Source: a virus. Taken from it: a stretch of DNA of 27,247 nucleotides. The notes below the pieces were generated by a model. That model was not told where the DNA came from and searched no databases. It saw nothing but the letters and a program-made list of their open reading frames with translations. Made by a program: the position numbers and the translations under genes. Below are positions 288 through 19,099 of this stretch, in pieces; the first letter of the stretch is position 1, and each line of letters starts with the position of its first letter. The DNA lies in IMG/VR virus record IMGVR_UViG_3300017706_002750, positions 1 through 27,247 of that record. One strand, given 5' to 3'.

Positions 288-297
288 TTATTTTCTC

Positions 298-3200
298 CTA
301 ATCATCCCTAATGCTACTTCTTATTGTACCAGGTGACACGACAGCATTAGTTGCAATTACGCCAGGAAGCCCTACAGTAATGTTTCGATTAACAGAAGCT
401 TGTTCTAGAATTGAACCTGAATCTGTATATTCCTCAAGTGTTTCAGAATTAACACCAGAAGAGTTAGAATTTGTATCAAAGTCCGGAAGATTATCTTGTA
501 TTTGTGAACCACTAGGAGCGATTAATCCATAATCATACGTATCATCCCCTGTTCTATCGAACATAGGATAGTATACTCTTTGGTATCTATCTTTGTTTCT
601 TCTATTGTTTTCTTTTAATTCTACTTCTATTCTAGGATCATTTGGATTCTTTGAGGAGTAGAATATCGGCGGACCAAAGCTAGGATCATGATTTATATTT
701 GCAGATGGTATTACATATGCACCATCTAATGACTGTTCCATCATGTCTTTAACTTGACCATATGAATTTCTAGAAAATATAAATGATCGGCTCTGCTTTC
801 TTGTGTTAGAAAGCCCGTATCTTGCACCACGTATTGGATCAATCTTTAAGAAAAAGTGTGTGACATCTCCTTGGGCATCTCCTCCGTTATTATTGTCAAA
901 AGCAACATGCTTGAAAATTGATGGCCTGAACACTAACCTATTCTGTAGGCCTTGTCCGAAACCACCTGCTAGATCCCCTAATGTTTTCTGTATGCTTGAT
1001 AGAGATGGAAAGTTTTCCCCTATGTGGTCTTTGAGCTCTATATCTGTTCCATTGGAGCCATCTAATTCGAAAGTAACTGTGTTTCTTAAGTCATCTTTCA
1101 TTATAAGCATTGCATCATCTCTGGAGCTAGCACTTTCTGGAATAGGAAGAGATAGGATAGAATTTGGTCCATCAACTGTTCCAGGCACGATAACTTTTTT
1201 AATTGATTGATCAAAGCTAGCAACAGAGTCTGTAGGATATTCTAAACATGGCCAATTCGAAGAAATTGGATCAGTCAAATCTATAACGACTTCATTGTCG
1301 ACAATTGTCCAGAAACTGGAGTTTTGATTAAATATATTCCTAGGATAAGAATCTATAAATTCACCTTTTTGAAAAGTTTGATTATTTACTAATTTTTGGA
1401 ATTTATTAAGAGACCCAAAAGGCCCAGCTGTTCCTTCAGTAGTACGAAATGTGACTTTTTTATTAATAGGGTATTCTGTTACGGAAGCCGGAGTAAATGC
1501 TGACTTAATATCAATCATGATTGCTTTTTGCTTGGGTAAATTAGAGTAATCGATTGAGATGTTAAAACCTGTATGCTCATGATCAAAAGCATTATGGCTT
1601 GGATTCAATGAACCAGCAGTATAATCACTGTGTTGTCGAAAGTATGTGTCTGTCATCATCCTGTCAGTTGAAACAACTGTGTTGTCAACAGTGGACACGG
1701 TGTATGAGCTACCAGATCCTGTCTCTTTCTGGAATTGATTGAAGCCCCAGTTACCAATAGTAGTATTATTGTACCCTTGGTTATTAGTCATGTTTTCATC
1801 TCTGTAAGCCCATATCTTAGAATCCGGAATATCATTCGTTGCAAAATCTCCTGAAGTTCCTAAAAGTGAAAATTCTAACAAAGAGTTAAAAGTCGCCTGT
1901 TTCTCTACTAGTCTTGCAAGAGCAAAATCGTCAGCGATATACTCTATCTGAAACCAATCAGTGTCGACATTATTTTCTCCAACAGTGTAATTCAACCCCT
2001 TGATAGCCACTTCAGATTTTAATATTTCTTTGATAGATCCCATCATTGCATTCCAAGTGATAGGAACTGTAACATTGTGCCATGGATTATAAGAGCCGCT
2101 TGATTGAAAGCTAAACAACATGTCATCACCGTCACTAAATCCGGTTGCAACATGGCCTTGTGCGGCCACAATATATATGTCTGCTAGTAAATCTGAACCT
2201 GATGCATACGCGTGTTCACTCCAACTAGACCCTGTAGATTCTGAACCCACACCAGCAGATACATTCCACAACAAAACAGGATGGGAACCCCTTACTGCAT
2301 CTGAAGCTGTACTACTGAAAGTAAAAATATCACCAGGCTGTAGAGTTTCCCAACTACCGCCCGAATTTGGATTATATGCTTGAGGCAGATTATCTTGGTC
2401 TAATGCAATAATTCTAGCAGTAAGCAGAAGGCTTTTCCATTTTACGTCTGTTGCTGAATTGGTGAATAATGGAAATATAGCTTTGAATTTCCACGATGAA
2501 AATGCTGGATTTTCAGCTGTCGGACTAAATGAAAAGTCATTACTGCTGTTGTCTACTGTCATTTTGTTACTAGCCAAAGTAGGAACTACTCTAGCAGGAT
2601 TTCTATTTAATTCCCAAAGTGCACAGCAACCACCATATCTTGAATTGATATGTTGACTAGTATACTCGGGTCTTGGGTTAATCCTTGCTATAGCAGTACT
2701 TACAGGCCAGATTCCTACTTGCAAAGAGCCCAGAAGTGCATAATTGTCCACAGGCGACGCATTAGTTGTTCCCGGATCCATCAACTCTTTAAAATTAGGC
2801 TTACTATAGAAGCATGAATCTCCAGATGCATGAGTATGAGTATTGGGTGTTCTATCTTTAAATGTCAGCTCATTCAGAAAGAGCCAGTTATACTTTATTT
2901 CTTCGTGTGGAGGCGATGCTTGTGATACTGCATAGTCTCTGCTTACAGTATTTGAGAAAGACGGAAGAACGGGCCCTGTTGGATCAAACTCCGATGTTGC
3001 TGTTCCTTGAAATTGGCTGTACTGAACCCTAAGTGATGCTTTTGCTTGCGTAAATGGGTGCGGTGACATAATATCGTCACTCATCGAACCCGAATACATT
3101 CTCAGAGGTGCAGTTTCATATGAATCAGAAATAATAACATTTCCTAATGCTTCATTCACATCTTCTGTAAAACCATGTGATTGGTTGGATCTCGGTGCAT

Positions 3201-6200
3201 ACCCTTTCCCGTTTCTTTGTCTTTCTACAAAGAGCCTAAGGTAACTGCCAGTCTGCTGGTGAGGTATTTTTAAAGAATTTCTTCCCCATTTTGCAAGATT
3301 ACCTGCTTCATCTATCATCTGTGAACCTAAAACTGTTGATATAGAATCTTGGATTCCCAACACTAGTTTGTCATGAGGGTGTAATATAACTTCAGAATCT
3401 TTTTCTGGATTAATTGACATTTTTTGATTCAGGTGTTCTATTTTTCTATTTGCAGCACCTATAGCTCCACTCATCGGCACTGCAAATCTACTGATTGGCA
3501 AAACATCGCCAAACTCTTGGCCGGCTATCCCAACAGCACTAGAACCATCGCTCAAGTCACCGGTACCAGAGCCTCCGTTCCAGCTATCAACAATCGAGTA
3601 GTTTGTTACGAAGTTTTGAGTATCAGTATCATGTGCTTCCGATGTATCTAAAAATGCATTTCCACTATTGGCACTAACACTTCTATTAGCCCTAATAAAA
3701 AATGGAGAAACAACAGAGAAGTTTGACATTTTAGAATTAGATTTAATCGATCCTGTCACATGAAAATCATACGTCGCAGTATTGCCATGTAGAGTTGTAA
3801 TAAAAGTATTATTTTCTCTGTTAAAAACATTGTCAAAATGGACAGTTTGATTACCAGGAATAAGACTTAAGTCTAATAGAGTGTTTTGGTGTATTCGAAC
3901 TTTATAATTCGAATCTTGAGACCAATGAGAGTCGTTGTGGTATACATGTTGCAGATACCCTAAGAGTTCTCTTGTTTTAGAATTATCAAAAAAGGTCGAG
4001 CTGTGAGGCCCTGATTGCAATGTGGTGGAATTGCCTATATCATTGGGACCGATATCAAATTCATGAATCCCTTTTAATTCAGGCTGCTTTGTTAATTTGA
4101 CTTGACTTCCAGAGTAGTGATTCGAATAAAATGTGTATTCTCTTGGATTAGATGTATACATGTCCAATGAAAGATTTGGTTCAATAAAATCAGATTGCCT
4201 TAACAAGAAAGCTGTCACTCCTTTTGTAGCTTGAGAAGTACTACTTTGGTTTTTAGTACCCGTAGGGAAAGAATTACCGTATTGATATTTACTGGATCCA
4301 TTGATGTACTCTGCGAATAAGATTGGAGAAGAATAGTCACCACTCGCAATGACATTCGAATTGATCAATCCTCTGATTCCATCGAAATCATATCCAGAGG
4401 ATCCACCAAAATCAATGTCGCTGCTAGATACTCCTACCTGGGGTATAACATCCATCTTTAATTCCCAACCTTTCAGTATAACAGATTCTGATATATACTG
4501 TGAGAGATCTAAAGTTTGATTGTTCGATGCATCGTATTTCTCATGGAATGGAAATCCGTATGCAGAAGTAGGTCGACCAGCCGAATCAACTATTTCTTCT
4601 AATTTATCGACGTCGAAAGGATATACTAGGTTTGTCATCGGAGAAAATCCTATACTAGCCGAGTGCACAAACCTAGTGGGATCTACTTCAGTCGACTCTG
4701 TTGAAGAAAAACTCTGTCTTTCTTCCCATTCTCCGGTCGAGAAATTATGGTAAGCCATTGTTGTAATTTCAATTGATGGATCTTGAAGAGCCAAAGATCC
4801 ACCACTCAATAACTCATGCGTAATCCATGGATTGCCAGATGCATCATTTACATGATTCGGGTAAAGTCCAGGAGTCCAAAAAGCTGCAGCCGCTGCCTGC
4901 GTGTAATTTGCAACTACTTTGGTGAAAGCATAATCAGCTACGGAATATCCCCACTCATCAGCTTGCTGTGTCGAAGGAATCAAGATAAAAGTACCAATAG
5001 TTCCTGTCCCTGCAGTAACTGATTTCCCCAAATCATGGTAATTGGTCTCACTGATTTGAATTTCTGACACCTTCTTCGGAGTGATATCATTTGGGTATAA
5101 AATTGTTGAACCATTTTCTAGATTAATTCCACCAAGGCCTTTGAGTAGATGAATTGCTGCAGATAAATACTGCCAATCTGTACTAGTGGTCGCTGGGTTG
5201 TAGATGGGTTGGATACTAGTTACATCGCCTTCGAATGCGCCAGTGGGTACTTTCATAATTGCAGATACTACGTTTGCGTGGTAAGGATTATTCAAGTAAA
5301 AATCTCTGATATTGCCATCTCTATCTAAAACAAATTCATTCCACCAGGCCGCCTGCTGGCTTTCTCCATCGGAGATTCTCGTTTTTATCTGAGGCCAATG
5401 ATACGCTAACAAAGCATGCTTCAAATATGATATTATACCTCTCCAAGCATCATACTCGGCTGGATCTAATTGAGCTCCTGAATTGGTGTCCAAGCTTGGT
5501 GCTGTTGGTCCAGCATAATTAAAAAATTTCCATTTAGGAATCGTAGAAGAACTAATAGTGTTGACAACAGGTACCCAATACGGGTCTGGTGTTGCCGTGG
5601 TTGTGACGCCAATATTGTCCGATCCCCATTTTATCTGTGCGAAGCCAGAAGTAGGGTAATAAATAGTTACATCACCTATCCAAAATCCAGTGTACGTCAC
5701 TGAAGGGCTAGTCCCTGTAATCATACCTGTTTCGCTAGAAGAATTAGTACTAAGGATACACTGGGTGCTTCCTCCTTGGGCGATAGGGATATCAATCGTA
5801 AATGAATTTACGAACGACTCGTTATCTTCGTCTCTAATGTAGTCATTAAAAGGGCCTACAGTCTGTTCTTGCTTGGTATCTCTATACAGCCAATCAGAAG
5901 TCACTATACTGTCGGACAGAATAGAGAATCCACCGTTGGATGGGATATCTAAGTCTTCTGCAAAGAATACGCTTCTATCTGGAGACAACCAATGCTGAAG
6001 GACTTCGTCGTCCGGATTTGTCTTCAAGTGTGGCAGTATAACATTGCTTTGCTTGTAGAATTTTGAAGCATCATAATTAAAAGATTCTGGTGTGTCATAT
6101 ATAGAAGTATCCGGATTATACAGCATCGACCTTCCTTCTTCGAACATGTTCCTATTCTCTGTAGTTAAAAGGTGTTGATCTGCTCCTCCATTGTTGGGAG

Positions 6201-7338
6201 GATAATACCTGATTCTTCTTTGTTCTTTTATTTCTCTGAGTGGTTCACTATTATGTGTGCCAGAATGTACGCCAAATGACCCTTCTCTAAATGCTTCATA
6301 TAAAAATCTTCCTACGCCATCTAGATTAGAGTCATGGTAATTTAATATTAAAAATTCTCCAATCCAGCCTTCAAATCCTTCACTTGCATTGACAATGTTC
6401 TCACTACTGTCGAGTGGATCTGTATCTGTTGTTGCCCAAAAAGAATTCGAATTTCCTAAAACAAGCCAATGATTAACACCAAAAGAAGAAACATTGAAAT
6501 CACCAAAGCTGTTATTACTACATTGAGTATCTTCTACTCCGTTAATCCAAATCCTAGTGTCTGCAACAAAATCTTTGGCACTTATATCTGCTAGATTTGT
6601 CGTAGCACCTGCAGAAATAGGCATACATATCGAGACAAGGTTCCACTCATTATCATGAGTCGACCTAGAAGAAACTCTTTCTGCAAAGAATATATCCGTA
6701 TCAATTCTAGGAGTTAAATCGCTAGAATCTGTGTTTACCGTAGACATTCTGACAGATATTTTTCCCGTTGATGTGATATATATTCCCAAACTTGGCTGGG
6801 TATCTGTTGGGTTAGATGCATCTGTTGGATCTTGTCTAAGAAAACCACCTATAGATTGGCCTAGATTCGAGGCTCCTGGGTATCTATCGGGTGATTTATA
6901 CCAAAATGATATCCAACAAGCAGAATCCACAGACTTGTACTGGTTGCTACTGTTTTTAGTAAACAGGATCTCGGCTAGATTGCCAACGTGACCGTTGGAT
7001 TGCACATAGCCTTGGTTTCCATCGTACCCAAATCTAATAGCTTGATGATCGAACCTAGTCACTTCTATATCGTCTATAGCAGGATCAACACCCTCATGCT
7101 TAAGGGAAACAACATCATAACCATTGTTGTCAGCATTGAGGTTGGTAAAATTATATACGTCTGTAGAATCTATAGAAACTGCATCTAAATAAAACCACAA
7201 CCGAGCATTCAAGTTGAACTTTTTGGGCGATGAAGAAGAAGAACTATCTCTCTCTAGATGAATAGTCCTGTTCTTTGTAGTTTTATTTAGTGGCTTTGTT
7301 GGAATCCATTTTTCTTTTTGTCTATTAAAAATAGCCAT
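298..7338 (-). CDS. Giant 2346-aa tail/baseplate structural protein with N-terminal LamG-like domain
   Basis: A single uninterrupted frame of 2346 codons, ATG at 7338 and TAG at 298. The start is supported by AAGAGGTAATCA just upstream, overlapping the stop of the preceding 761-aa gene. After a basic N-terminus and a run of six serines (about residues 32-37), residues about 42-345 look like a concanavalin A-type LamG sandwich: a 'LWFYLDA' opening strand, an 'ISFWYKSP' strand, 'TRIWINGVED', and the closing strand 'GWIGEFLILNY'. The remaining 2000 residues are rich in Ser, Asn, Thr, Asp and aromatics, with no transmembrane segment, coiled coil or signal peptide visible. A C-terminal segment near residues 2180-2205 contains SRNSYGQVKDMMEQ. 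Position after the baseplate wedge genes suggests a peripheral tail or receptor-binding protein. LamG domains often bind glycans, but the ligand is unknown. Confidence 0.85.
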   Translation of the reverse strand: MAIFNRQKEKWIPTKPLNKTTKNRTIHLERDSSSSSSPKKFNLNARLWFYLDAVSIDSTDVYNFTNLNADNNGYDVVSLKHEGVDPAIDDIEVTRFDHQAIRFGYDGNQGYVQSNGHVGNLAEILFTKNSSNQYKSVDSACWISFWYKSPDRYPGASNLGQSIGGFLRQDPTDASNPTDTQPSLGIYITSTGKISVRMSTVNTDSSDLTPRIDTDIFFAERVSSRSTHDNEWNLVSICMPISAGATTNLADISAKDFVADTRIWINGVEDTQCSNNSFGDFNVSSFGVNHWLVLGNSNSFWATTDTDPLDSSENIVNASEGFEGWIGEFLILNYHDSNLDGVGRFLYEAFREGSFGVHSGTHNSEPLREIKEQRRIRYYPPNNGGADQHLLTTENRNMFEEGRSMLYNPDTSIYDTPESFNYDASKFYKQSNVILPHLKTNPDDEVLQHWLSPDRSVFFAEDLDIPSNGGFSILSDSIVTSDWLYRDTKQEQTVGPFNDYIRDEDNESFVNSFTIDIPIAQGGSTQCILSTNSSSETGMITGTSPSVTYTGFWIGDVTIYYPTSGFAQIKWGSDNIGVTTTATPDPYWVPVVNTISSSTIPKWKFFNYAGPTAPSLDTNSGAQLDPAEYDAWRGIISYLKHALLAYHWPQIKTRISDGESQQAAWWNEFVLDRDGNIRDFYLNNPYHANVVSAIMKVPTGAFEGDVTSIQPIYNPATTSTDWQYLSAAIHLLKGLGGINLENGSTILYPNDITPKKVSEIQISETNYHDLGKSVTAGTGTIGTFILIPSTQQADEWGYSVADYAFTKVVANYTQAAAAAFWTPGLYPNHVNDASGNPWITHELLSGGSLALQDPSIEITTMAYHNFSTGEWEERQSFSSTESTEVDPTRFVHSASIGFSPMTNLVYPFDVDKLEEIVDSAGRPTSAYGFPFHEKYDASNNQTLDLSQYISESVILKGWELKMDVIPQVGVSSSDIDFGGSSGYDFDGIRGLINSNVIASGDYSSPILFAEYINGSSKYQYGNSFPTGTKNQSSTSQATKGVTAFLLRQSDFIEPNLSLDMYTSNPREYTFYSNHYSGSQVKLTKQPELKGIHEFDIGPNDIGNSTTLQSGPHSSTFFDNSKTRELLGYLQHVYHNDSHWSQDSNYKVRIHQNTLLDLSLIPGNQTVHFDNVFNRENNTFITTLHGNTATYDFHVTGSIKSNSKMSNFSVVSPFFIRANRSVSANSGNAFLDTSEAHDTDTQNFVTNYSIVDSWNGGSGTGDLSDGSSAVGIAGQEFGDVLPISRFAVPMSGAIGAANRKIEHLNQKMSINPEKDSEVILHPHDKLVLGIQDSISTVLGSQMIDEAGNLAKWGRNSLKIPHQQTGSYLRLFVERQRNGKGYAPRSNQSHGFTEDVNEALGNVIISDSYETAPLRMYSGSMSDDIMSPHPFTQAKASLRVQYSQFQGTATSEFDPTGPVLPSFSNTVSRDYAVSQASPPHEEIKYNWLFLNELTFKDRTPNTHTHASGDSCFYSKPNFKELMDPGTTNASPVDNYALLGSLQVGIWPVSTAIARINPRPEYTSQHINSRYGGCCALWELNRNPARVVPTLASNKMTVDNSSNDFSFSPTAENPAFSSWKFKAIFPLFTNSATDVKWKSLLLTARIIALDQDNLPQAYNPNSGGSWETLQPGDIFTFSSTASDAVRGSHPVLLWNVSAGVGSESTGSSWSEHAYASGSDLLADIYIVAAQGHVATGFSDGDDMLFSFQSSGSYNPWHNVTVPITWNAMMGSIKEILKSEVAIKGLNYTVGENNVDTDWFQIEYIADDFALARLVEKQATFNSLLEFSLLGTSGDFATNDIPDSKIWAYRDENMTNNQGYNNTTIGNWGFNQFQKETGSGSSYTVSTVDNTVVSTDRMMTDTYFRQHSDYTAGSLNPSHNAFDHEHTGFNISIDYSNLPKQKAIMIDIKSAFTPASVTEYPINKKVTFRTTEGTAGPFGSLNKFQKLVNNQTFQKGEFIDSYPRNIFNQNSSFWTIVDNEVVIDLTDPISSNWPCLEYPTDSVASFDQSIKKVIVPGTVDGPNSILSLPIPESASSRDDAMLIMKDDLRNTVTFELDGSNGTDIELKDHIGENFPSLSSIQKTLGDLAGGFGQGLQNRLVFRPSIFKHVAFDNNNGGDAQGDVTHFFLKIDPIRGARYGLSNTRKQSRSFIFSRNSYGQVKDMMEQSLDGAYVIPSANINHDPSFGPPIFYSSKNPNDPRIEVELKENNRRNKDRYQRVYYPMFDRTGDDTYDYGLIAPSGSQIQDNLPDFDTNSNSSGVNSETLEEYTDSGSILEQASVNRNITVGLPGVIATNAVVSPGTIRSSIRDD

Positions 7339-7341
7339 TGA

Positions 7342-9627
7342 TTACCTCTTATGTTCTTGAGCTATTATACCATTGACTCTAGAAGAGTGAACTGTTGTAT
7401 GGCCTGTATTTTGGTATATATAATCACTTTGCTGCCATTCTCTGCTATCTATTTCTAAAGATCTTCCTGTCAGCACATCGATTGTACTAGCGTCATTGTC
7501 GTCATCCCAGTATTTTTGAGTAAGCCAAACCATCATCTCATCATCGATCCTTGTCCATCTTTTTTCTTCTACATATTTCAAAACTGCAGGTTCTTCTTGG
7601 TCAAAATAATCCTCAAACATGATCGATTCTCCCGGGCTAACTGCGGGAACCCTTTTTAAATACACCCAATCAGCATTCTGTGTATTTTGTGTTGGAAAAT
7701 TAGGACTAGTGCTGGTAAAATTGGCTGTTGCAATTCCGCCTTTATATTTGATATTAAACTCAATATCACCGTTTGGGTTATATTTCCACTGATAGCTTTT
7801 GTAATTGCCGGTTGGTAGCGTGCCAGTTGGCACGAGTGATCCAAAAGAGTTTGTTATCATAGATTGCACGCCAGGGGAGGTGAGCTGTATAATATGATAC
7901 TCTTCTTCTCCTTCGTCTCTAATTCCTTTTAAGTCTTCAAACTTCTTAATATCTATCTGTTCACTTTTCTTAAGATGCTTGTCTTTTACGATTACAATTG
8001 ATTCAAGGTCAAAAGATTGTGCAGATACAGATTTTCTAGTATTCCATAGCACTGTTTCTGGCATATTGCTATAATATGATTGCACCCTGTCAAAAAGATC
8101 AATTCTTCCGGACATGGGCGATTCTTTTATAGAGTTTGTCGAAGAATATCTTTTGTCAAACATGTTTTCAAGATGCGCGACGAAAGCATCTTGGGTTCTT
8201 CCACCGTGATCATTTACGTCGACCCATTGTGGCCACTTTTCAACTAACTGTGAATGTGTTTGTTGGTCTGGATCCACATAATGAATGTCTTCAAAATAAG
8301 TATGATTGCTAACATGCGTGTTGTCAACTATTTGTTTAGATTGAGTTTTTCTTATAGATAAAAGCTCAGATGTAACTACTTCATCAATAAGAGCAGGTGA
8401 ATTTGACAAAGTTTCTTCGTATTTGGATATCTCTACGCCTGCAGAAAACTGTGGCGTCGATGTCCCTAATGAGACTTGTGGAGAATAAAAATTGATGCTA
8501 GCTGTCGACGCGTCTATTGGCCGGACTTCGGTCTGTTTCAAGAAGTCAGTCCTAAAGTCTTCATAAAACACCTTGCTTTGTCTTTGTATCTTTCTATGAC
8601 CAGCCCTCGTCCATTGGTGAGGTACAGAAAAATCCCACGATTCTATAGAAATATCAGATCCAGATGCTGTTACGTTGACTGCATTACTATTCGGATTTTG
8701 TACTACACCATTTCTCTGATAGTTAAGTTTTATACGAATGGGTGAGCCGGCTGACGTATCCGACAGATCGTAATTGTCCCACAAGTAGAAAGCACCGTCT
8801 TCTTTGGATATATTCAGATAATTTTCTGATTCGGGATCTAAGATCTCTATATAAGAAGGCAACACTCTATGCAAAGCCCTAGTTATGGTTGCATATAGCC
8901 AATATGGGTTTTTTGCCAATGATTGAAAAACAGATGAAACCGATAAATCAAATTCAGACACAGGAATGGCTGTGCCAAATTCATCTGAAGGCTGATCAGT
9001 AGGAAACGCAGTAGACGGAAGCCCTATAGGGATTTTATATAAGTTGTTTGTAGTATCATGTGCTCCATAGTTCTGTAAAACACTGTCCTGATTTAATTCA
9101 AAATCAGCATGATAAAACTCTCTAGGGATTGGCTTGAGAAGATGCATGTGCATATTTGCGTTCCATGTATTTCCTTTCCTTCCTGGATATCCATTGTACA
9201 GCCCGTTTTCTTGGTATACCAATCTTGGATCCACTCCTAGTTCATTGACAAATTTAAATTTCCATGAAAATGGCTCAGAAGAATCAAATTGATATTCAGG
9301 ATTGTATATAATAAATTCTTGGTCAACCAAAGTAGAAAAGTTTCCACTCGAATCATAAGATGCCGAAGATCCTATCGACACCTGAATATCAATTGTTTTA
9401 TTCTTTCCTAATTCATCAATGTCTGAAGCTGACTTGTAAACTGTTTGGACTGCTGAGTATTCATGGCCTAAACTTCTTCCTAATATCGGTAAACAACTTC
9501 TGGAAACATCTCCTGTTTTTAAATCAAGTCCTTGATCATAGATTTCTATGCCTGGAAGTCGACCACCCGATCTTCTTTTAACATCAGATCTAAAAGTTCT
9601 TCTATTTTTATCTAAACTTATTGACAT
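7342..9627 (-). CDS. 761-aa virion protein of unknown fold, tail module
   Basis: The ATG at 9627 directly abuts the stop of the gp7-like gene (TAAATG), and GGAGA lies about 8-12 bases upstream. The stop TAA at 7342-7344 sits 3 bases before the next ATG. The protein begins with a very basic stretch (MSISLDKNRRTFRSDVKRRS). It continues as a Ser/Asn/aromatic-rich, probably beta-rich protein with no transmembrane segment. The C-terminal third has acidic and Trp-rich stretches such as KYWDDDNDAST and SREWQQSDYIY. I do not recognise the family. Being locked between a wedge protein and a giant LamG protein makes a baseplate or tail structural role very likely. It might take the place of T4 gp8, gp9 or gp10, but no residue pattern proves this. 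Confidence 0.8.
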   Translation of the reverse strand: MSISLDKNRRTFRSDVKRRSGGRLPGIEIYDQGLDLKTGDVSRSCLPILGRSLGHEYSAVQTVYKSASDIDELGKNKTIDIQVSIGSSASYDSSGNFSTLVDQEFIIYNPEYQFDSSEPFSWKFKFVNELGVDPRLVYQENGLYNGYPGRKGNTWNANMHMHLLKPIPREFYHADFELNQDSVLQNYGAHDTTNNLYKIPIGLPSTAFPTDQPSDEFGTAIPVSEFDLSVSSVFQSLAKNPYWLYATITRALHRVLPSYIEILDPESENYLNISKEDGAFYLWDNYDLSDTSAGSPIRIKLNYQRNGVVQNPNSNAVNVTASGSDISIESWDFSVPHQWTRAGHRKIQRQSKVFYEDFRTDFLKQTEVRPIDASTASINFYSPQVSLGTSTPQFSAGVEISKYEETLSNSPALIDEVVTSELLSIRKTQSKQIVDNTHVSNHTYFEDIHYVDPDQQTHSQLVEKWPQWVDVNDHGGRTQDAFVAHLENMFDKRYSSTNSIKESPMSGRIDLFDRVQSYYSNMPETVLWNTRKSVSAQSFDLESIVIVKDKHLKKSEQIDIKKFEDLKGIRDEGEEEYHIIQLTSPGVQSMITNSFGSLVPTGTLPTGNYKSYQWKYNPNGDIEFNIKYKGGIATANFTSTSPNFPTQNTQNADWVYLKRVPAVSPGESIMFEDYFDQEEPAVLKYVEEKRWTRIDDEMMVWLTQKYWDDDNDASTIDVLTGRSLEIDSREWQQSDYIYQNTGHTTVHSSRVNGIIAQEHKR

Positions 9628-12600
9628 TTAAGATATCTCCGATTGGATGATTCCAATAAAAAGTGGTACTTGCTCAAAAGAGATTCTATCTGCCACATCA
9701 ACATGTACATCTCCCTGCTTGTATTCGAATTTATGTCTTTCCAACATGTGAGACTCTATCACGAAATTAATGCCTAAAAATTCTGCAGTATGAGGTATGA
9801 ATTGTTCTACTAAAGAAGAGAAGTTTCCATTGAACCACCTTTGGAACTCTATGACACTGTTGTAATTAACCCTCCCAACAATTCTTTCGAAGTATAAATC
9901 CCTTATTTTTGCCAATTCAGGATAAGAAACCGCGTACTCAAGCTCCGGTCGACCTAAATAGTTGTTGAATATATCAGAATCCCCTGTCAAGTTCATCATG
10001 TCTTCATTCAATGCATGAACTAATGAAGACTCTATCGAAAATCTTCGATCATCCACTCCTACCTGTGATGGAATACGTGTAATTTTTCCATGTTGTGCAA
10101 AATTTTCTTTTGCTGTTTTCTTATCTAGATAAGACCTAACTCGCACTTTATTAGAAGCACTGTTAAAATCAAAATCCGTGGGGGATATATTATACACCAT
10201 TTCTTGTGTGAAGAATGCTTTTGTTTCATTCGCATCTCCGTATAGAGTTAAATTATTTTCATTCTGTGATGTGTCAATAACCTCTATTTCGCCTGATGAA
10301 TCAAGCTTTGTATTCCCTTGAAGCATATCATATGAATTTCTTAAACGTTCCCAACTCCCTTGAGGCAATGCATGCTGATACGTTGAAGAGAATTTTTCCA
10401 ATGGAACATTTTCATACAGACCAGATGAATTGAGTTGTTGATTAGGAGCTATCATGAAAGAATAGGAGCTCACAGGATCTACAGAGGCAATAGAAAAAGG
10501 ATTTCTGACATGTTCTATTGCCTCATATTCGGAAATAGCTTTTGTCCAAAATCTCATGTGACTCAACATACCATTATACGATGTAGCACGAGCATGCTCT
10601 GTGTCTGTTCCTGCAGACCCTACTGGATTTCGAGAACCATATGAAGCACCAGATGGCCCAACATAATATCTCAAAGTGTCAGAGTGAGTATTGTCAAAAA
10701 GATAGAAAGGAGCATTAGACTCTTTTTCTATATTTACGTATACATCTTTATTCTCTATTATGTATTTATCATTTGATTTTAAAACCCTTATGCCTATTCT
10801 AGGGTTGTCACCCACTTCATGGTAGACAGAGATATACCATGGAGAAGAATCCCACAGATTAAGCTTTTCAACTTCTAAGAAAACAGGGTCTGTAGAGTTT
10901 TTGTGACCATCTATGTGCAATTGCAAGCCATATCGGAGAAGTGCATTTGTATTTAAGTCAGTTTCTTTATGAGCAACTAAATTCAGAAGTATTTCATTAT
11001 TCCTTTCTATTCTAAAAAGAGAGCATGTGTCTTCTGATGGATTCAAAGTATATCGACCTTCATGTGACCATGAGCCTGAAGTATACTGCGTTTTGATCGG
11101 AGGGCCTGCAGGTGTGCTGTATACAATGTCTCCAAACTGGCTATCTATCGTTGCCATCGCAGGAGCTCCTCCTGCATCTGGTGCACCGGGTTCGTGTCTA
11201 TAAGCCCAAAGAGAATTTGATTTTGCATAAGAAATATTTTTAAAGTCAAGCGTTTTTATTCTCTTCTTTCGTTTGTTACGGGAAGAATTAATTCTAGTTG
11301 AAATATTACCGCCAAACTCTCTGAACTTGAATATTCCATCTGATTCAATTCCTAAAGTGTTAAAAAGTGCACGTATCCCTTGGATTGTGCCTCTACTCCT
11401 AAGCAAAAATGGTAGATTGACTAAAATTCTTCTCCACATAGTGTCTATTGTTTTCTTAAGAGGAACATGCACACCATCCGTTATCTCTACGCCTTCCCCT
11501 CTCTGGTATCTATCAGGTGTCTCATCAGTATATGGATCTGGCAAATTAATACCGTAGTAGTCACTCATGAATGTTATCAACTGGGGTGGAATCTGATCGT
11601 AATTATCATATGAAACTTTATCTAAAGTAGCAAAATGATCTAAGTACAGCTTGATTTCATCGAAGAAATTAGCCCATACTAGTAGGAATGACATTAAAAC
11701 AAGGCCGGTCGGCATATCTCCATGTCCAGGTATAGGATAACTTGGTTTTTCGCTTGTTCCGTACGACTCAACTTCTTCAAATTCTTTATCAACACCTTCG
11801 AAGAATGTAGCTTCTTCAAAATAATGCTTAGGCACTAAAGAAGTGATGATATTAGGATTATTCCTATCGTAATGATTTCCTTCGATTAGAAGACTTTCGT
11901 TCAAAGCTTTTGTAGGAGGCCAATCTGGAAACAGTACCTTGTTATCTTCTTCTCTTTCATATGCTACTGGAGTAGAGACTTCTTCTCCACTAGAGTTCTC
12001 ATATATGTTTCTCATAGAGACATTATAATTTTCAATTTTACTATGAAGAGAGTTCCCAGAATAATCTAGTACGATTAGTGATGCTGCATACGAATGAATT
12101 GCTGTTGGTGGTTCATTGAATCTATATGAAACTAACAAATTCGTCTGATTATCTGCATTTCTCTTATGGTATCTATTAATATTTTGACTAGATCTAGGGC
12201 CTAGCCAAACTCTGAGTTCGTCCAAAAGCCCTTGAAAATAAACTGGAGTGTTTCCGGTGCTTAGTGCTAAGCTATTAGTAGCATATCCCACTTGCCTAGT
12301 ATCAGACCATCCAATCCGGATTTTACCTCTATACGCAGTGATATCATCTAGTTCTGCTTGTATCGCAGACGTACTATCAATGTATTTTCCATTTAAGTAC
12401 GATAGTATCTTTTCACTTTGTGTTCTTTCGTACACAAATGCGACATGATGCCATGTATCGTGTGCTAGATTAGTTAGTGAATGAGTTATAGATTTATAAT
12501 TTCCGGATCCAATAAGAAAATGAATGTCAAATTCCCAAATACCTGATTCCGGATTCAAAGTACTCTCTTCGTGCCAAATTGTTATTCCTTTCTTTGTTTC

Positions 12601-13263
12601 TTTCAGAGGAGTCCAAGTGTGGCCGGCGCTTTCGCAAGTCGACTGGTTGCTTTGGTGACTAGAATCACTAGCAGAACAAGATCCAATAGTCAAATCAGGA
12701 TCTGCAGATTTCTGATATATTACTGCATATTCATTTGAATTAAGCTTTCCAGCTTCTGGGATATATACCCAAAACTCATGAGTCGAGCCATTGGTGTTCA
12801 TGAATTGAGAGGCTTTTGCTTCACCAACAACAGTAGCTAGATCTGGAGCATGATAACCTGTGTGATCTATCACTTCTAAGTGTGAAGACCCAGCTGTAAA
12901 GTTCATGTATCCCATATGGGAATCGATTTTTCCTAGTATGTGTTTTGTATACCCATTGATGCTAGCCAAATATTCTCTTTTTTCTTGACTCGTTCCGTCG
13001 AATGGATATCCATTAACGATCTGATCAAAAGATAGATTGACTTTTGCTTCTGCGCTATTAAAGAATACATGTTTCTCAAAGTTATCCCAATCCACTAACA
13101 ACTGCTGTGTATTTTTTACACCTGTTCCTATAGGTTCATTCTCCCATGATTCTACAGATGAGCCAGCTAGATTAGATTCTAGCGTATCACCGGTTACATT
13201 TCTAACTACCGGCTTTGCAGAAGCTGAATTTACTAAAGGAGATGTTGTGAATAAATTGCTCAT
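9628..13263 (-). CDS. Baseplate wedge protein, gp7/gpI-like, with two LamG-like regions
   Basis: I start this gene at ATG 13263, giving 1211 aa beginning MSNLFTTSPLVNS. That start lies one base after the TAA of the 505-aa gene. The longer frame from 13329 would overlap that gene by 65 bases. Residues about 115-385 resemble a LamG sandwich ('THEFWVYIPEAGK', 'TWHHVAFVYERTQSEKILSYLNGKYI', 'GLLDELRVWLG'). Residues about 620-639 read LLRSRGTIQGIRALFNTLGI, close to the 'RGT..airral..lG' signature of the phage P2 gpI tail family, which is related to part of T4 gp7. A second LamG-like region spans about 715-920 and ends with 'GMLSHMRFWTKAISEYE'. The C-terminus has RWFNGNFSSLVEQFIPH. T4 gp7 is about 1032 aa and forms the wedge core with gp6 and gp53. 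Gene order after gp25 and gp6 supports this. A Cys mini-motif (C196, C210, W217) sits in the first LamG region. Confidence 0.75.
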   Translation of the reverse strand: MSNLFTTSPLVNSASAKPVVRNVTGDTLESNLAGSSVESWENEPIGTGVKNTQQLLVDWDNFEKHVFFNSAEAKVNLSFDQIVNGYPFDGTSQEKREYLASINGYTKHILGKIDSHMGYMNFTAGSSHLEVIDHTGYHAPDLATVVGEAKASQFMNTNGSTHEFWVYIPEAGKLNSNEYAVIYQKSADPDLTIGSCSASDSSHQSNQSTCESAGHTWTPLKETKKGITIWHEESTLNPESGIWEFDIHFLIGSGNYKSITHSLTNLAHDTWHHVAFVYERTQSEKILSYLNGKYIDSTSAIQAELDDITAYRGKIRIGWSDTRQVGYATNSLALSTGNTPVYFQGLLDELRVWLGPRSSQNINRYHKRNADNQTNLLVSYRFNEPPTAIHSYAASLIVLDYSGNSLHSKIENYNVSMRNIYENSSGEEVSTPVAYEREEDNKVLFPDWPPTKALNESLLIEGNHYDRNNPNIITSLVPKHYFEEATFFEGVDKEFEEVESYGTSEKPSYPIPGHGDMPTGLVLMSFLLVWANFFDEIKLYLDHFATLDKVSYDNYDQIPPQLITFMSDYYGINLPDPYTDETPDRYQRGEGVEITDGVHVPLKKTIDTMWRRILVNLPFLLRSRGTIQGIRALFNTLGIESDGIFKFREFGGNISTRINSSRNKRKKRIKTLDFKNISYAKSNSLWAYRHEPGAPDAGGAPAMATIDSQFGDIVYSTPAGPPIKTQYTSGSWSHEGRYTLNPSEDTCSLFRIERNNEILLNLVAHKETDLNTNALLRYGLQLHIDGHKNSTDPVFLEVEKLNLWDSSPWYISVYHEVGDNPRIGIRVLKSNDKYIIENKDVYVNIEKESNAPFYLFDNTHSDTLRYYVGPSGASYGSRNPVGSAGTDTEHARATSYNGMLSHMRFWTKAISEYEAIEHVRNPFSIASVDPVSSYSFMIAPNQQLNSSGLYENVPLEKFSSTYQHALPQGSWERLRNSYDMLQGNTKLDSSGEIEVIDTSQNENNLTLYGDANETKAFFTQEMVYNISPTDFDFNSASNKVRVRSYLDKKTAKENFAQHGKITRIPSQVGVDDRRFSIESSLVHALNEDMMNLTGDSDIFNNYLGRPELEYAVSYPELAKIRDLYFERIVGRVNYNSVIEFQRWFNGNFSSLVEQFIPHTAEFLGINFVIESHMLERHKFEYKQGDVHVDVADRISFEQVPLFIGIIQSEIS

Positions 13264-13264
13264 T

Positions 13265-14782
13265 TTATATAACCCTGAATGCTTGATTTGACTCGTAAAT
13301 CCTTCGTTCTCCTCTATCGTAGAACGCAATGTCTACCGTGTATGTTCTTCCTCTAGGAAGTACACTGACAGGGAAAGAAAAGAACATACCATCAGAATTA
13401 ACTGATATTCTAGTTGATTCATCAGGAGTACTGAGTGAATCAGAAAACGGTATAAGAACATTAAGAGAATTAGTGTCTTTTATTTGGTAATAGGCTTTCT
13501 GCACTATCTGAGATGCCAACTTTATAGGGATTCTGACTGGTTCATCAACCAAACTTCTATCTCGAACAAACAATCTTATTTTTGGAACATCTAAATGAGA
13601 GTATTTAGTTTTCAAATCGATGACACTAAATCTTAAATTTCTAGATAATTCTGATGATTTTGCCAGCGGCCGTATTAACTTTATGGAACCGCTATATACA
13701 GTCTTTGCACCGACTGTCCATTCCTCTTGTAAGAGTATACTCCCCGATGCTAACAGATGAGGATTTAAAACTGAATCCAATGAGTCAATAGGAGCAAAAT
13801 CAGCAGAATACAACCCTGTTTGAGATTTCCCAGACAAAGAAACAGATTCTCCTACAGAGCTTGATGAGTATGTGTTATATGAAACAGTGCATGTTGGTGC
13901 ACCTGTCAGAGTTGAAGGCTGGTCTTGCACGTAATTTTGAATAAATATTTTATTTGAATTATCTGCTTCAAAATCTAATCGATCATCTAAATAATAGTCT
14001 TCCCAAGAAGCTATAATCTTTGGCCTTAAAAAAGGATTCCTAGTGTGTCTAGACGCAAATCTCTTAACAAAATAACTTTTCGAATCAGTTTCTTCTGTTG
14101 TAAACTTAAGAACCCAGCCAAAGTTATTTGTCACGCTGGTATTTCCAGAAGACCAATACGCTTTCAGCCAATCTGTTATATCCATTTCTAGATCTTCTTC
14201 GCCGGAAACAAAAGATTGCGATGCTATGTAAGTTCTAAGATCATCTGCTTCAGAGTCATCTGCAGCATCCCAAGATGATTCCCAATCTCCCCCGGCAGTT
14301 GACCAACTAGTATCTTCATCTGAATTTACCCAATTGGTGGGTGCAAGCTCAGAAAAACTAGCAACATCATCTCCAATGCCTTCTGACCATGCTTTTGACA
14401 CTGGCCACAGCTGTAAGGTGAAATTAGACGGAGACACTTGAGATCCTTGCACATCTTTTAGAACTAGCTTGAACTTAAGTGAGCTATCTGTTAGGGAAGA
14501 ATATTTTTCTACTTCGGTTTTTAATTGACCAAGATCGAATTGTAATAACCCTCTAGACAATTCTGACAGATTATAATCCCATGTCCCAGAACATGAAGAT
14601 TCCTCATCTGTGTCCACTCCATCACACGTTCCCTTATACCCTTTTAGAGTATTTTCTCCATAAAGCTTGAACATATCTACAGTAGATGCGTATCCAACAT
14701 TAGAGGTTGTTGCCCTTCTTGTTCCTGCTACAATTTTGTTAGTTATATATGTATCTTTCGATCCTGTATGGTGTAGTATCAT
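13265..14782 (-). CDS. 505-aa DNRLRE-like virion protein between gp6 and the gp7-like gene
   Basis: ATG at 14782 after TAGGAGAAATAA, where the TAG is the stop of gp6; stop TAA at 13265-13267. The N-terminal ~260 residues follow the layout of DNRLRE-type beta domains. There is an opening 'SKDTYITNKI' strand, then 'RGLLQFDLGQL', an 'LQLWPVSKAWSEG' strand, a Trp/Asp/Ser-rich stretch, 'MDITDWLKAYWSS', and a closing 'SRHTRNPFLRPKIIASW'. In other proteins this domain occurs in secreted or surface-bound, often carbohydrate-related, proteins. C53, C64 and W68 form a short Cys/Trp mini-motif like one in the downstream gp7-like protein. The C-terminal half has an 'RPLAKSSELSRNLRFSVIDL' region and looks beta-rich. 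A baseplate-attached structural role is inferred from its place between two wedge genes. Confidence 0.75.
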   Translation of the reverse strand: MILHHTGSKDTYITNKIVAGTRRATTSNVGYASTVDMFKLYGENTLKGYKGTCDGVDTDEESSCSGTWDYNLSELSRGLLQFDLGQLKTEVEKYSSLTDSSLKFKLVLKDVQGSQVSPSNFTLQLWPVSKAWSEGIGDDVASFSELAPTNWVNSDEDTSWSTAGGDWESSWDAADDSEADDLRTYIASQSFVSGEEDLEMDITDWLKAYWSSGNTSVTNNFGWVLKFTTEETDSKSYFVKRFASRHTRNPFLRPKIIASWEDYYLDDRLDFEADNSNKIFIQNYVQDQPSTLTGAPTCTVSYNTYSSSSVGESVSLSGKSQTGLYSADFAPIDSLDSVLNPHLLASGSILLQEEWTVGAKTVYSGSIKLIRPLAKSSELSRNLRFSVIDLKTKYSHLDVPKIRLFVRDRSLVDEPVRIPIKLASQIVQKAYYQIKDTNSLNVLIPFSDSLSTPDESTRISVNSDGMFFSFPVSVLPRGRTYTVDIAFYDRGERRIYESNQAFRVI

Positions 14783-14791
14783 TTATTTCTC

Positions 14792-16618
14792 CTAGAGGAC
14801 AGTTATCTCAATATCTGAATTAGGGTATCTTAACTCAAATATTTCGTATTCGTCTGCAAAGATAACATCATTTTCTATTTCCAACTTCTTTTTATCAGAT
14901 GAATATTCCCTACCCTCTATTGTACCCGTTAAGTTTGTTATTTGAGGAGTAAGACATGACACAACACCGGGTTGACTTATCACTACATTTAATATGTCAC
15001 TCATCACTAAAGGCTTGCCCATTGCGATTTTTTCTGCAGTATAAAGCTTTTTAACTTCCCTAAGTATCTTAGATATCAAATTATATTTATTAACGTTGTG
15101 AGAAAATCTACAACTAATTTTTATTTTAAAATTGACAATTGATGCATCTAAAATATCCATTGCATCGCCAATGAGTCGAAATTCATTTAAATATATAGAA
15201 AGGTTCTGTTTCAATGCATCACTTGATTGAGTAAGCCTGCCGGATGCATCTCTCGATGTAACGTAAAGTATCGACGCTAATGCGTTTTCTGGATTCGGTA
15301 TAACGTTTGCTCGATATACAATACCAAACTCTGTTGGAAGTGTATATATTCTCGCTAAGAGATCTTCTCTGGTCACTATTCTATTCTGCATTGTTCTTGC
15401 AGATGTTATATAAGATTTCAAATCTTGTAAAGTTGGAGCAGAGGCTCCACCTGTTGCACTTTTAGGATTCCCAAGGCCTAATTTTCTTTTAATATCTTGA
15501 ATTTTATTAAAAGCTCCATTACTTGGAAATTTCCACTCTATAGTGGAAACTTGCCTAATTGTGTCTGGTCCTACATTGTGATTCGCTCCTCCACCATGTC
15601 TGTAAACTACTCTCAGGGTAGTTCCTGTAGGTGAAACACCCAATGAAGGAGATTTTAATAATCTGTTTGGATCCAAAGAAAACGAAGAAAACGTTTCTTT
15701 TCCGTAAAGTGGCAAAGCCAAATCAGATGCATCAGGTACCGAAGTATCAAATATAGTTGAAGAATCACCTGACCCAAATCGCAGTGTCGTATTTCTAGAT
15801 GTGACATTTGTAAAAGAAACATATCGGTATGGTGCAGATATAACCTCGACAGAAGAGTCACCTGAGCTTAGCCTATTTCTTTTGTATACAGTGTCTTGTG
15901 ATAAAGATTCTACTTCATAATAATCATTACCTTCAGAGTCATATACTCTAAGAATAGCGGAAACGTGTGCCTTGTTTAATGAAATAGTCCTGAATGGAAC
16001 GAATGTATTGTTGACTGTTATACTTTGTTCAACTACTTCACCTGAAACACACAAGCCTGATTTCTTTAAAACAATAGAGCTTACTTGCCCTGAAGAATCT
16101 TGAATGGGAGTTTGTTCAGCTTTTAAAACTCCATTGATATTAACTTCGGAAAAATCTATATCATGAGTAAGGTTAAAATGAACTCCTGAATTTGATTTAA
16201 TTCTTGCATTCGCCTTGATAACAGGAAGATACAGTGGGTCTGCAATTTTTAGACCGGTTTCTGAACTAGTGATCGATGGAACCTCAATATAGAAATCAAC
16301 ATCTACTGATGCAGGAGAATTACCGGTTATTTTTATACCAGCATTCCTCACCATAGCCTCTATATTTTTTGATTCTACAGCAGTGACTGGATTCATTTCT
16401 CTAAATTGGTGATCCATGTAAAATGCCATGTTATCACCTATGTAGGCAGCCATGTCTAAAAATAGGCCTCCCATTGAAGCTTCAGAGAAATCTTGTATTT
16501 TATCTTTAAAGTAAACGTTTGCATACTTTAATAGATCTAATCTAAAATCGTCAAAATCCCTATTAAGATATGACCTCTGTCTCTGCAAACCAAATTTTGC
16601 TTTTATATCATCTGCCAT
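14792..16618 (-). CDS. 6: Baseplate wedge subunit, gp6-like (baseplate J family)
   Basis: 608 aa, against about 660 for T4 gp6. The ATG at 16618 has a perfect GGAGG eight bases upstream region (16624-16628), overlapping the end of gp25. The N-terminus carries the typical gp6/gpJ block: 'DFRLDLLKYANVYFKDK', then 'DFSEASMGGLFLDMAAYIGD', then 'AFYMDHQFREMNPVTAVE'. The middle is beta-rich. The region 'DLKSYITSARTMQNRIVTRE' (about residues 400-420) and the C-terminal 'GKPLVMSDILNVVISQPGV' plus 'IFELRYPNSDIEITVL' match the C-terminal organisation of this family. In T4, gp6 dimers tie neighbouring wedges into the inner baseplate ring, working with gp25, gp53 and gp7. Direct linkage to gp25 upstream and a gp7-like gene downstream supports the call. 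Confidence 0.93.
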   Translation of the reverse strand: MADDIKAKFGLQRQRSYLNRDFDDFRLDLLKYANVYFKDKIQDFSEASMGGLFLDMAAYIGDNMAFYMDHQFREMNPVTAVESKNIEAMVRNAGIKITGNSPASVDVDFYIEVPSITSSETGLKIADPLYLPVIKANARIKSNSGVHFNLTHDIDFSEVNINGVLKAEQTPIQDSSGQVSSIVLKKSGLCVSGEVVEQSITVNNTFVPFRTISLNKAHVSAILRVYDSEGNDYYEVESLSQDTVYKRNRLSSGDSSVEVISAPYRYVSFTNVTSRNTTLRFGSGDSSTIFDTSVPDASDLALPLYGKETFSSFSLDPNRLLKSPSLGVSPTGTTLRVVYRHGGGANHNVGPDTIRQVSTIEWKFPSNGAFNKIQDIKRKLGLGNPKSATGGASAPTLQDLKSYITSARTMQNRIVTREDLLARIYTLPTEFGIVYRANVIPNPENALASILYVTSRDASGRLTQSSDALKQNLSIYLNEFRLIGDAMDILDASIVNFKIKISCRFSHNVNKYNLISKILREVKKLYTAEKIAMGKPLVMSDILNVVISQPGVVSCLTPQITNLTGTIEGREYSSDKKKLEIENDVIFADEYEIFELRYPNSDIEITVL

Positions 16619-16619
16619 T

Positions 16620-17108
16620 TTATCCTCCCATGTACAGCATTATTTCCAAAGATCGCATTGCTTTGTCTAGCTGTGGAATTGTATATGTAACCTGTATACC
16701 AATCTTTGCGACTTCTTTATTGTCTTCTCTATCTACCAGTGTTTGAAATTCCTGAAGAGAAACAAAAGGAAGATATTTTGCGACGGCTGTCTTTATTCTA
16801 TTAACTGCTTCGGAATCACCTCCATCAGACCCTAAGTTAAAAAGAATTGGTCTTAAATTTGCCCCGAAATCGTAAAATCCCAATCTTTCTCCGTGATTGG
16901 TCAATATTAAATTTCTTAAATTATCAGATATTTGTTTAGCGACGTTCGTATGCATTTCAAACAATCCTTCAGAACTTGATAGCCTCATAGGGGTCTGTAT
17001 ACCTATGGGAGGCGAAACTGTTGTGGTTGCAATAGTCTCTTCTTTTTGTCTTTCTCCGACGGATGTGAATGAATACTTTTTTCTAGTCTGTTTTCTTGTC
17101 AAGCTCAT
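16620..17108 (-). CDS. 25: Baseplate wedge subunit, gp25-like
   Basis: 162 aa; T4 gp25 is 132 aa, and the extra length is mainly a basic N-terminal tail (MSLTRKQTRKKYSF). The core shows the gp25/W family pattern: 'MRLSSSEGLFEMHTNVAKQI', then 'NLRNLILTNHGERLGFYDFG', then 'LRPILFNL', followed by 'RIKTAVAKYLPFVSL' and a C-terminal strand pair ending 'MLYMGG'. Known role in the family: gp25 starts tail sheath polymerisation on the baseplate and joins the gp6/gp7/gp53 wedge core. The ATG at 17108 has AAAGGAGAAG upstream. The 42-bp gap before it is one of the larger ones in this module. The stop TAA touches the gp6 ribosome site. Confidence 0.93.
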   Translation of the reverse strand: MSLTRKQTRKKYSFTSVGERQKEETIATTTVSPPIGIQTPMRLSSSEGLFEMHTNVAKQISDNLRNLILTNHGERLGFYDFGANLRPILFNLGSDGGDSEAVNRIKTAVAKYLPFVSLQEFQTLVDREDNKEVAKIGIQVTYTIPQLDKAMRSLEIMLYMGG

Positions 17109-17578: not shown

Positions 17579-19099
17579 TTATTCTCCGTAGATTTTTGAT
17601 GAAGGAAACTTTTTAATACCTTTTTTGTAAAGAGATAAATGCGTGCGCAGTGTTGAGGCTGCAGCAGTTAACTGTGGTGATTGACCGAAGAAAGGTATAG
17701 CATGTGCAGACACTGTTCCGCAAAAACTCTCAAGAGCATCGTGTACATTATTAAGATATTTTTCAAGTTCAGAATACTTTATATATGGTTCTGTCCCTGA
17801 TGACCCTTGTCCAGACCCTCCATTTTCACCGATATAAATTTTAGTGCCTTGAATGTTAATTTGGCCATCGGAATTTAATATTATCTGTGCAGTATTCCCG
17901 GAATCTCCTTTCTCTTTGATTATCCGAATCGATCCATCCTCTCTGGCTATGACCCTTATTTCATTGGACTTCATTGCTATAGACGCGGCTTCTTTACTTT
18001 CCAAAGAGCCTTCGAGTATACCAATATATTCTTCTTCAAGTGCAAAATTTTCATCTATAGGGGATTTCATAGACACATAAAGTCGACTAGCATCCATGTG
18101 GAAATCTGGATCTCCTTCAGACCTATTGACATCTTGTCCATTGAGCTTCGAAACTTTGTCAGTTTCAATTTCGCCATTTTCATCTTCAATGACCCTTGCA
18201 CCTGTTCTTGACGGAGCTTCTCCGTCAGATGACTTTGATGTGGGTTTACTAGCAGAAGTAGCTGCGCCTCTTCCAGACACTATATCAATAGTACCTGTTC
18301 CTGTCTGAGGTTCTGAATCTGCGTTGGATGTTGAGAAGTCTTCGTCTGATTTTTTCCAACCTCTATCAGTACCTAGTGATATCAAGGTATTGTTCGAACC
18401 CTGAAGAACTAAATCTCCGACTCTAGGCGTGAATCTGGGAACTGTGTCTTTTGCATGTTTAGAAAGCATGATTTCTGACTTTACAGACTTCGCAGTAACT
18501 CCGCCAGAAGAGTTTTTCGTGCCACCAATCGATCCAGCAACACCATCATTGAACCTAGGAATAAATTTTGATTTTTCTCCCTTTGCCGCTTGTGCTTTTG
18601 ATTTAGCATCTTCCGGAGGGTTATTAGGAGTCTCCATCTCTCTGTCTTTATGCGTGAAATTAACGTCTTCAACCATTCCTGAAGCACCAACTCTTCCTAA
18701 CCAATAAACGTAATCACCACCATCATCGAATATCCATACTTGCTCACCTGGCTTAGCTGGTACCATCAAATGTGACGAGAGCATAGGAATTGCAGCATCT
18801 AATTCTGCAGAGCCTTTTTCTCCCATCTTTTTCACTAACAAAGCACCTCTAGGAAGATTCTGTGATACATCTTTGTTTTTCACTTTCTTGTCTGTTGGTT
18901 TTGCTTCTTCTTCCTGGTCTTTGATATGCTTTGCAAAGACCTCAGGGTCAGTAATCACTTCTGCTACAACCGCTCGAGAAAAACCTCCAGAGGGAGCTGC
19001 ACCTTGTGCGGACTTTAATGCTTGTGACGTTTCCACTTGCTGTGCTGTTTTACCAACTGCATCAGTACCAAATTTTCTATCAGCTGCTTTTGTTGCCAT
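17579..19099 (-). CDS. 5: Baseplate hub/spike protein, gp5-like OB-fold, lysozyme domain absent
   Basis: 506 aa, ATG at 19099, 3 bases after the stop of the 121-aa gene. Residues about 38-140 look like the N-terminal OB-fold of gp5-type hub proteins: 'FSRAVVAEVI', 'LPRGALLVKKMGEKGS', and the key run 'MLSSHLMVPAKPGEQVWIFD' followed by 'YVYWLGRV'. A charged Lys/Ser/Gly-rich linker (about 150-220) leads to 'RFTPRVGDLVLQGSNNTLIS'. After a further low-complexity Ser/Asp/Glu stretch comes a repetitive beta region (about 365-425: 'IAMKSNEIRVIAREDGSIRI', 'AQIILNSDGQINIQG', 'TKIYIGE') resembling the start of a trimeric beta-helix. No phage-lysozyme catalytic segment is visible between the OB-fold and the beta region, unlike T4 gp5 (575 aa). 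The inferred site is the centre of the baseplate at the cell-puncturing tip. Confidence 0.8.
   Translation of the reverse strand: MATKAADRKFGTDAVGKTAQQVETSQALKSAQGAAPSGGFSRAVVAEVITDPEVFAKHIKDQEEEAKPTDKKVKNKDVSQNLPRGALLVKKMGEKGSAELDAAIPMLSSHLMVPAKPGEQVWIFDDGGDYVYWLGRVGASGMVEDVNFTHKDREMETPNNPPEDAKSKAQAAKGEKSKFIPRFNDGVAGSIGGTKNSSGGVTAKSVKSEIMLSKHAKDTVPRFTPRVGDLVLQGSNNTLISLGTDRGWKKSDEDFSTSNADSEPQTGTGTIDIVSGRGAATSASKPTSKSSDGEAPSRTGARVIEDENGEIETDKVSKLNGQDVNRSEGDPDFHMDASRLYVSMKSPIDENFALEEEYIGILEGSLESKEAASIAMKSNEIRVIAREDGSIRIIKEKGDSGNTAQIILNSDGQINIQGTKIYIGENGGSGQGSSGTEPYIKYSELEKYLNNVHDALESFCGTVSAHAIPFFGQSPQLTAAASTLRTHLSLYKKGIKKFPSSKIYGE
17584..17587 (-). promoter_or_regulatory. Ribosome binding site that supports a GTG start
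   Basis: GGAG is seven bases before GTG 17576-17574. It sits inside the last codons of the gp5-like gene. It is the best evidence that the 141-aa gene uses GTG. Confidence 0.55.

Follow-up and report, generated by a model that had tools for sequence, protein, structure and literature searches.

A probable gpI/gp7-type baseplate wedge protein with two laminin-G-like regions in uncultured phages

In known contractile tails, the baseplate wedge protein BW3 (T4 gp7, P2 gpI, pyocin PA0619) is bundled with a pair of gp6-type subunits and serves as the attachment point of receptor-binding proteins (PMC10811340). A preliminary description of the DNA analysed here treated T4 gp7 as an internal component of the wedge, a view that needs qualifying, as the gp7/gpI-type BW3 forms the periphery of the baseplate and is not purely internal (PMC10811340). 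Because BW3 is the attachment site of receptor-binding proteins, any extra domains it carries are expected on the rim.

Sugar-binding modules in wedges are already known from two systems. In AlgoCIS, the gp6-like wedge protein Alg11 carries two CBMs (PMC8894135), which have been proposed as contacts to a secondary receptor (PMC13314943), and the gp7-like part has been described as a re-engineering hotspot (PMC8894135). The wedge protein Gp119 of phage Vp4 (Herelleviridae) contains sugar-binding sandwich folds and decorates host cells (PMC11406892); it relates to A511 gp105, a T4 gp8-type connector, and not to gp7/gpI (PMC10811340). Literature searches joining LamG or laminin G with the baseplate wedge returned nothing.

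Here we describe a gene from a virus record of 27,247 bases (IMGVR_UViG_3300017706_002750; hereafter the window) whose product would combine these themes. Like AlgoCIS Alg11/Alg12, it appears to be a wedge component with inserted modules of a carbohydrate-binding type, but the AlgoCIS CBMs are found in the gp6-like Alg11, where they form a spike cage, whereas here laminin-G folds are found in a gp7/gpI-type protein. It likewise resembles Vp4 Gp119 as a baseplate wedge protein bearing sandwich folds, although those of Gp119 are CBM16-like, not laminin-G, and belong to an A511 gp105 homologue. The likeness to T4 gp7 lies in gene order, as both follow gp6, and in architecture, as both are long multidomain proteins with large N-terminal parts ahead of a helical core; T4 gp7 differs in having no laminin-G family match, and the flanks of the new protein have no sequence match to the other domains of T4 gp7. 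With P2 gpI, R2 pyocin Tri2 (PA0619) and A-1(L) gp32 the protein shares a related core domain, and with P2 the gene order W-J-I, yet those proteins are about 180-190 aa long, while the core described here has one sandwich ahead of it and a second dividing it.

The wedge gene, its neighbours and its relatives

The gene lies on the minus strand and encodes 1,211 aa, with its ATG at 13263 and a stop codon ending at 9628. The coordinates given in the preliminary description were exact, and the strand is minus; a plus-strand reading of 9628-13263 is riddled with stop codons and was ruled out. The tail genes discussed below are as follows.

16620..17108, minus: gp25/gpW-type wedge protein (BW1, sheath initiator); phrog_261, E 2.8e-8, with PF04965 below cut-off
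14792..16618, minus: gp6/gpJ-type wedge protein (BW2); phrog_219 and phrog_6, E 4e-9 to 5e-9
13265..14782, minus: conserved 505-aa gene between the gp6-type gene and the wedge gene; present in 122 loci, Disaggr_repeat below cut-off
9628..13263, minus: wedge gene; its product is a probable BW3 of gp7/gpI type that bears two laminin-G-like inserts
7342..9627, minus: 761-aa gene directly downstream of the wedge gene; only in close relatives
298..7338, minus: 2,346-aa mosaic tail/adhesin-like gene; laminin-G-like stretch near residues 222-332

Read in the direction of the minus strand, the genes are one of 506 aa (17579-19099), one of 141 aa, gp25/W, gp6/J, the 505-aa gene, the wedge gene, the 761-aa gene and the 2,346-aa gene. 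The wedge gene adjoins the gp25/W- and gp6/J-type genes, as BW3 genes do, with the 505-aa gene intervening after gp6 and ending at 13265. No named family was matched by the 505-aa gene (minus strand), and its place between the gp6-type and wedge genes suggests a further baseplate part. In the locus comparison, the gp6-type, gp25-type and 505-aa genes were each present in around 120 loci.

Several other minus-strand genes lie in the window. Three glycosyltransferase-like genes are found beside the tail genes (20482-21621, 21621-22877 and 23916-25748; Glycos_transf_1/_2, phrog_2170, phrog_13126), and the gene at 19465-20202 is a probable late sigma factor resembling T4 gp55 (phrog_234, E 5.6e-4; Sigma70_r2 below cut-off). 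A PD-(D/E)XK nuclease of exonuclease-like type is encoded at 22861-23703 (PF12705, E 1e-26).

A tblastn search with the whole wedge protein against cultured phages gave no match. Related IMG/VR loci were instead reached through the gp6-type neighbour and two short segments of the wedge protein, and a profile was built from 14 of these loci; tblastn then confirmed at least 568 relatives, 80 of which were kept, nearly all of them full length. Full-length relatives mostly measure 1,100-1,260 aa and are around 30% identical to the window protein. The named or cultured relatives are remote, comprising Microcystis phage Mel-JY01, immuto-group phages of Flavobacterium and LR756508, a huge-phage genome. 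Genome collections yielded only four matches (L215-L218), in MAGs of four unrelated taxa, and these are probably mis-binned phage contigs; no host is inferred for the wedge gene for this reason. One of the four, filed as a Euryarchaeota MAG (L217), has an ORF at 3-3362 in which three stretches match the profile of the second sandwich described below. In another locus (L013, 13163-21769) the wedge protein is fused to around 1,700 extra residues in a single open frame of 2,869 aa.

A gpI/gp7-type core interrupted by sandwich regions

The protein can be divided into five parts, listed here from the N-terminus together with two short segments of the core; all are on the minus strand.

12922..13176, minus: N-terminal conserved region, residues 30-114; motif DWxxFxxHxFFNSAExKVN
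11941..12921, minus: first sandwich of laminin-G/pentraxin fold, residues 115-441; Pfam and PDB profile matches, VIA Z about 20
11284..11940, minus: probable gpI/gp7-type helical core, residues 442-660; Pfam scans of relatives, hhalign, fold search
11785..11850, minus: ITSLVPKHYFEE and the residues following it, residues 472-493; aligns with T4 gp7 648-669, the start of Gp7_helical, E 0.005
11347..11406, minus: LLRSRGTIQGIRALFNTLGI, residues 620-639; corresponds to the KGT-helix motif of gpI (hhalign)
10219..11283, minus: second, predicted laminin-G-like sandwich between the core halves, residues 661-1015; model and weak profiles, absent in immuto
9694..10068, minus: C-terminal core, residues 1066-1190; the most conserved part, containing FVIESHMLERHK

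As a single sequence, the whole window protein matched Laminin_G_3 alone in Pfam, and nothing in PHROGs or among PDB sequences; the middle of the window protein gave no wedge-family match in any of these single-sequence searches. The relatives were more informative. In a Pfam scan of the middle (residues 441-690), Tail_P2_I was found in half of the relatives (28/56, best 5.9e-4) and Gp7_helical in four of the 56 (best 0.0097). These two families rank top among 24,736 Pfam models, with every other family matching at most 2 of the 56. When profiles were compared by hhalign, residues 554-658 aligned with the gpI family at a probability of 83-86% (E 5e-6 to 9e-6), and control slices taken elsewhere in the wedge protein gave nothing against the same family. 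The gpI profile comprised P2 gpI and genome loci, as viral-contig copies of P2 gpI are near-identical and unusable for a profile. The match to the T4 gp7 profile is short, being confined to the 22 residues of the ITSLVPKHYFEE segment. A direct scan for Tail_P2_I in W01-W03 and two MAGs at E 0.001 found none, so the gpI relation is visible only with family profiles. The preliminary description had placed LLRSRGTIQGIRALFNTLGI between two LamG-like regions and read it as a gpI-type motif; its position is as claimed, and the gpI relation goes beyond chance.

Structural comparison of the middle is weaker. A profile of the middle gave only chance-level matches to PDB sequences, none of them a baseplate protein. 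Folded alone, the middle was modelled with a pLDDT of 72 and a pTM of 0.41, and a fold search of the PDB with this model listed first 9gtp_A, from the baseplate of a Streptomyces contractile system, and third 8kea_c, the A-1(L) wedge protein gp32, both with weak scores (Foldseek E 1.3 and 3.9, respectively). Superposition on 8kea_c was also weak (VIA Z 4.1, rmsd 5.1, 100 aligned). The gpI profile independently finds 8kea_c, pyocin Tri2 and the entry 9gtp, the last via chain 9gtp_E where the fold match was to chain 9gtp_A. T4 gp7 itself was not listed in the fold search, which we do not count against the gp7 relation. Judged by these family-level comparisons, the middle of the wedge protein is a gpI/gp7-type (BW3) domain.

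We considered whether the protein is instead a tail fibre or adhesin, with the helical middle serving just as its attachment domain. Its length and laminin-G domains are adhesin-like, and the single-sequence searches show no wedge match, but the gpI relation of the middle and the position behind gp6, which relatives conserve, make this highly improbable. No other gene in the window matches gpI or gp7, a weak argument given that the wedge protein alone matches neither.

The first flank is of laminin-G/pentraxin fold. Laminin_G_3 matches residues 246-362 of the window protein (E 4.5e-11; 43.6 bits against a cut-off of 27.6), and in an AlphaFold2 model of the whole protein the sandwich spans residues 115-441, close to the 115-385 or so first described as LamG-like. 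The closest structural comparison is with PAPP-A (VIA Z 20.0, rmsd 3.7, 218 aligned), followed by pentraxins at 17-18 (PTX3 17.6) and laminin-G/neurexin domains at around 15. A profile of the whole protein, searched against the PDB, detected the first sandwich alone and matched it to pentraxin and S-layer structures.

For the second flank a laminin-G-like fold is predicted only. The region first described as residues 715-920 or so appears in the whole-protein model as a wider beta-sandwich, with mixed confidence (block pLDDT 46-93), and the profile evidence is thinner than for the first flank: the flank of the window protein itself has no Laminin_G profile match, 6 of 55 relatives match Laminin_G_3 on the second flank (best 8e-5), a profile of this flank gives a weak hhalign match to the first flank (E 0.002), and it has no profile match in the PDB. 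Tandem LG chains (3qcw, 6cw1, 2jd4) align over both regions, at about 100-1005 of the model and over around 340-360 residues.

Sandwiches as insertions in a shared scaffold

The three anchors (N motif, gpI core and C core) and their spacing were sought in all loci, covering 121 ORFs. Among the fetched ORFs, 97 carry all five parts, both sandwiches included. A further 19, the immuto-type group among them, have the three core anchors and no match to the sandwich profile, a profile that also misses the sandwich of Mel-JY01. The N-terminal motif region is also present in immuto, Mel-JY01 and LR756508. Both Mel-JY01 WWT39511 and immuto QQO92079, each annotated as hypothetical, share the scaffold of N motif, gpI core and C core, but the former lacks the first sandwich and the latter lacks both. 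In immuto the core halves are around 53 residues apart, and its core, which has no second sandwich, gives one unbroken alignment spanning the two core halves of the family described here (probability 99.6%, E 2e-24). In Mel-JY01 around 114 residues separate the N motif (E 4.6e-6) from the core, leaving no space for the first sandwich, and the core halves are parted by a laminin-G-like domain (E 1e-5 against flank 1). LR756508 is without the first sandwich and has around 400 residues between the core halves.

These comparisons support the view that the sandwiches are insertions in a scaffold that relatives possess without them, the first entering after the N-terminal motif, ahead of the gpI domain, and the second between the two core halves; from immuto through Mel-JY01 to the two-sandwich ORFs, the number of inserts thus runs from none to one to two. 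That a baseplate scaffold had gained sandwiches was suggested in the preliminary description. The insertions themselves stand, and gain is the likelier direction than loss, because neither P2 gpI nor Tri2 is nearly long enough to contain sandwiches. The reverse would make the laminin-G domains an ancestral trait that immuto, Mel-JY01 and LR756508 have since lost, and not a gain in the window lineage. We regard it as distinctly unlikely, given that the compact P2 gpI and Tri2 (176-177 aa) could not accommodate domains of this kind, that T4 gp7 is without a Laminin_G family match, and that the first domain is missing in three separate lineages.

Possible roles of the laminin-G-like domains

The reading we favour, with a probability of about 0.75, is that the gene encodes a BW3 with two laminin-G inserts on the rim, acting alongside separate adhesins. 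The protein would be baseplate wedge 3 of a contractile phage tail, in the role of T4 gp7, P2 gpI or pyocin Tri2. Its core would consist of the N-terminal motif, the gpI-type helical domain and the C-terminal helices, and would pack with two gp6-type copies per wedge, as homology and gene order suggest. Both laminin-G-fold domains would then sit at the outer rim of the baseplate, beside separate adhesins and not in their place.

The preliminary description had gone further, proposing receptor binding built into the wedge instead of into separate fibres. This is unsupported, because BW3 is known as the site where fibres dock and because two genes that look like adhesin-type genes lie downstream: the 761-aa gene, which the locus comparison finds in no relatives but the closest, and the 2,346-aa gene, a mosaic with its own laminin-G-like stretch (hhalign E 2.6e-4). 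Both are far more variable than the wedge gene. That the laminin-G domains are nonetheless the main receptor-binding apparatus, replacing such fibres, would fit the frequent glycan binding of LG/ConA-like folds, the host-cell binding of Vp4 Gp119, a wedge-associated protein with CBM folds (PMC11406892), and the faster evolution and greater length variation of these regions compared to the core. When the window protein is compared with the two relatives closest to it, identity is 57-65% in the sandwiches and 76-90% in the core, with more length change in the sandwiches; the N region and C core are almost free of indels and the laminin-G regions change faster. Set against this are the much greater variation of the large separate tail genes, the two-sandwich layout common to the 97 ORFs with no sign of module swapping, and a laminin-G binding site that is putative only, and we consider such a replacement very unlikely.

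Beside separate adhesins, the inserts would most likely be rim modules that dock those adhesins or clamp neighbouring parts, a role which in our judgement has about an even chance of being correct. Evolutionary rates fit either docking or glycan contact, as the sandwiches vary faster and the two-sandwich layout is group-wide. The main alternative, which we hold to be less likely, is that the domains are secondary glycan sensors of low specificity that help to trigger the baseplate once the fibres have bound: on the rim they would touch surface polysaccharide and so promote sheath contraction, as proposed for the AlgoCIS CBM cage. The fold type of the modelled flanks is compatible with glycan binding, and the Alg11 CBMs have been proposed as secondary-receptor contacts (PMC8894135, PMC13314943), but laminin-G folds can be purely structural and the AlgoCIS precedent is itself only a proposal. 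The stronger version, in which laminin-G domains on a gp7/gpI wedge read host glycans at the rim and signal straight into the wedge, seems to us unlikely; if true, it would place recognition and triggering in one polypeptide across a large group of contractile phages that have not been cultured.

The two-sandwich wedge layout appears to be common to many uncultured aquatic phages and absent from well-studied ones. Several hundred uncultured virus loci, unnamed in current family libraries, would thereby receive a wedge-protein name, and the relatives offer a natural series in which a single scaffold with two set insertion points bears zero, one or two laminin-G inserts. This makes it testable whether a wedge protein senses the host surface itself or merely holds what does.
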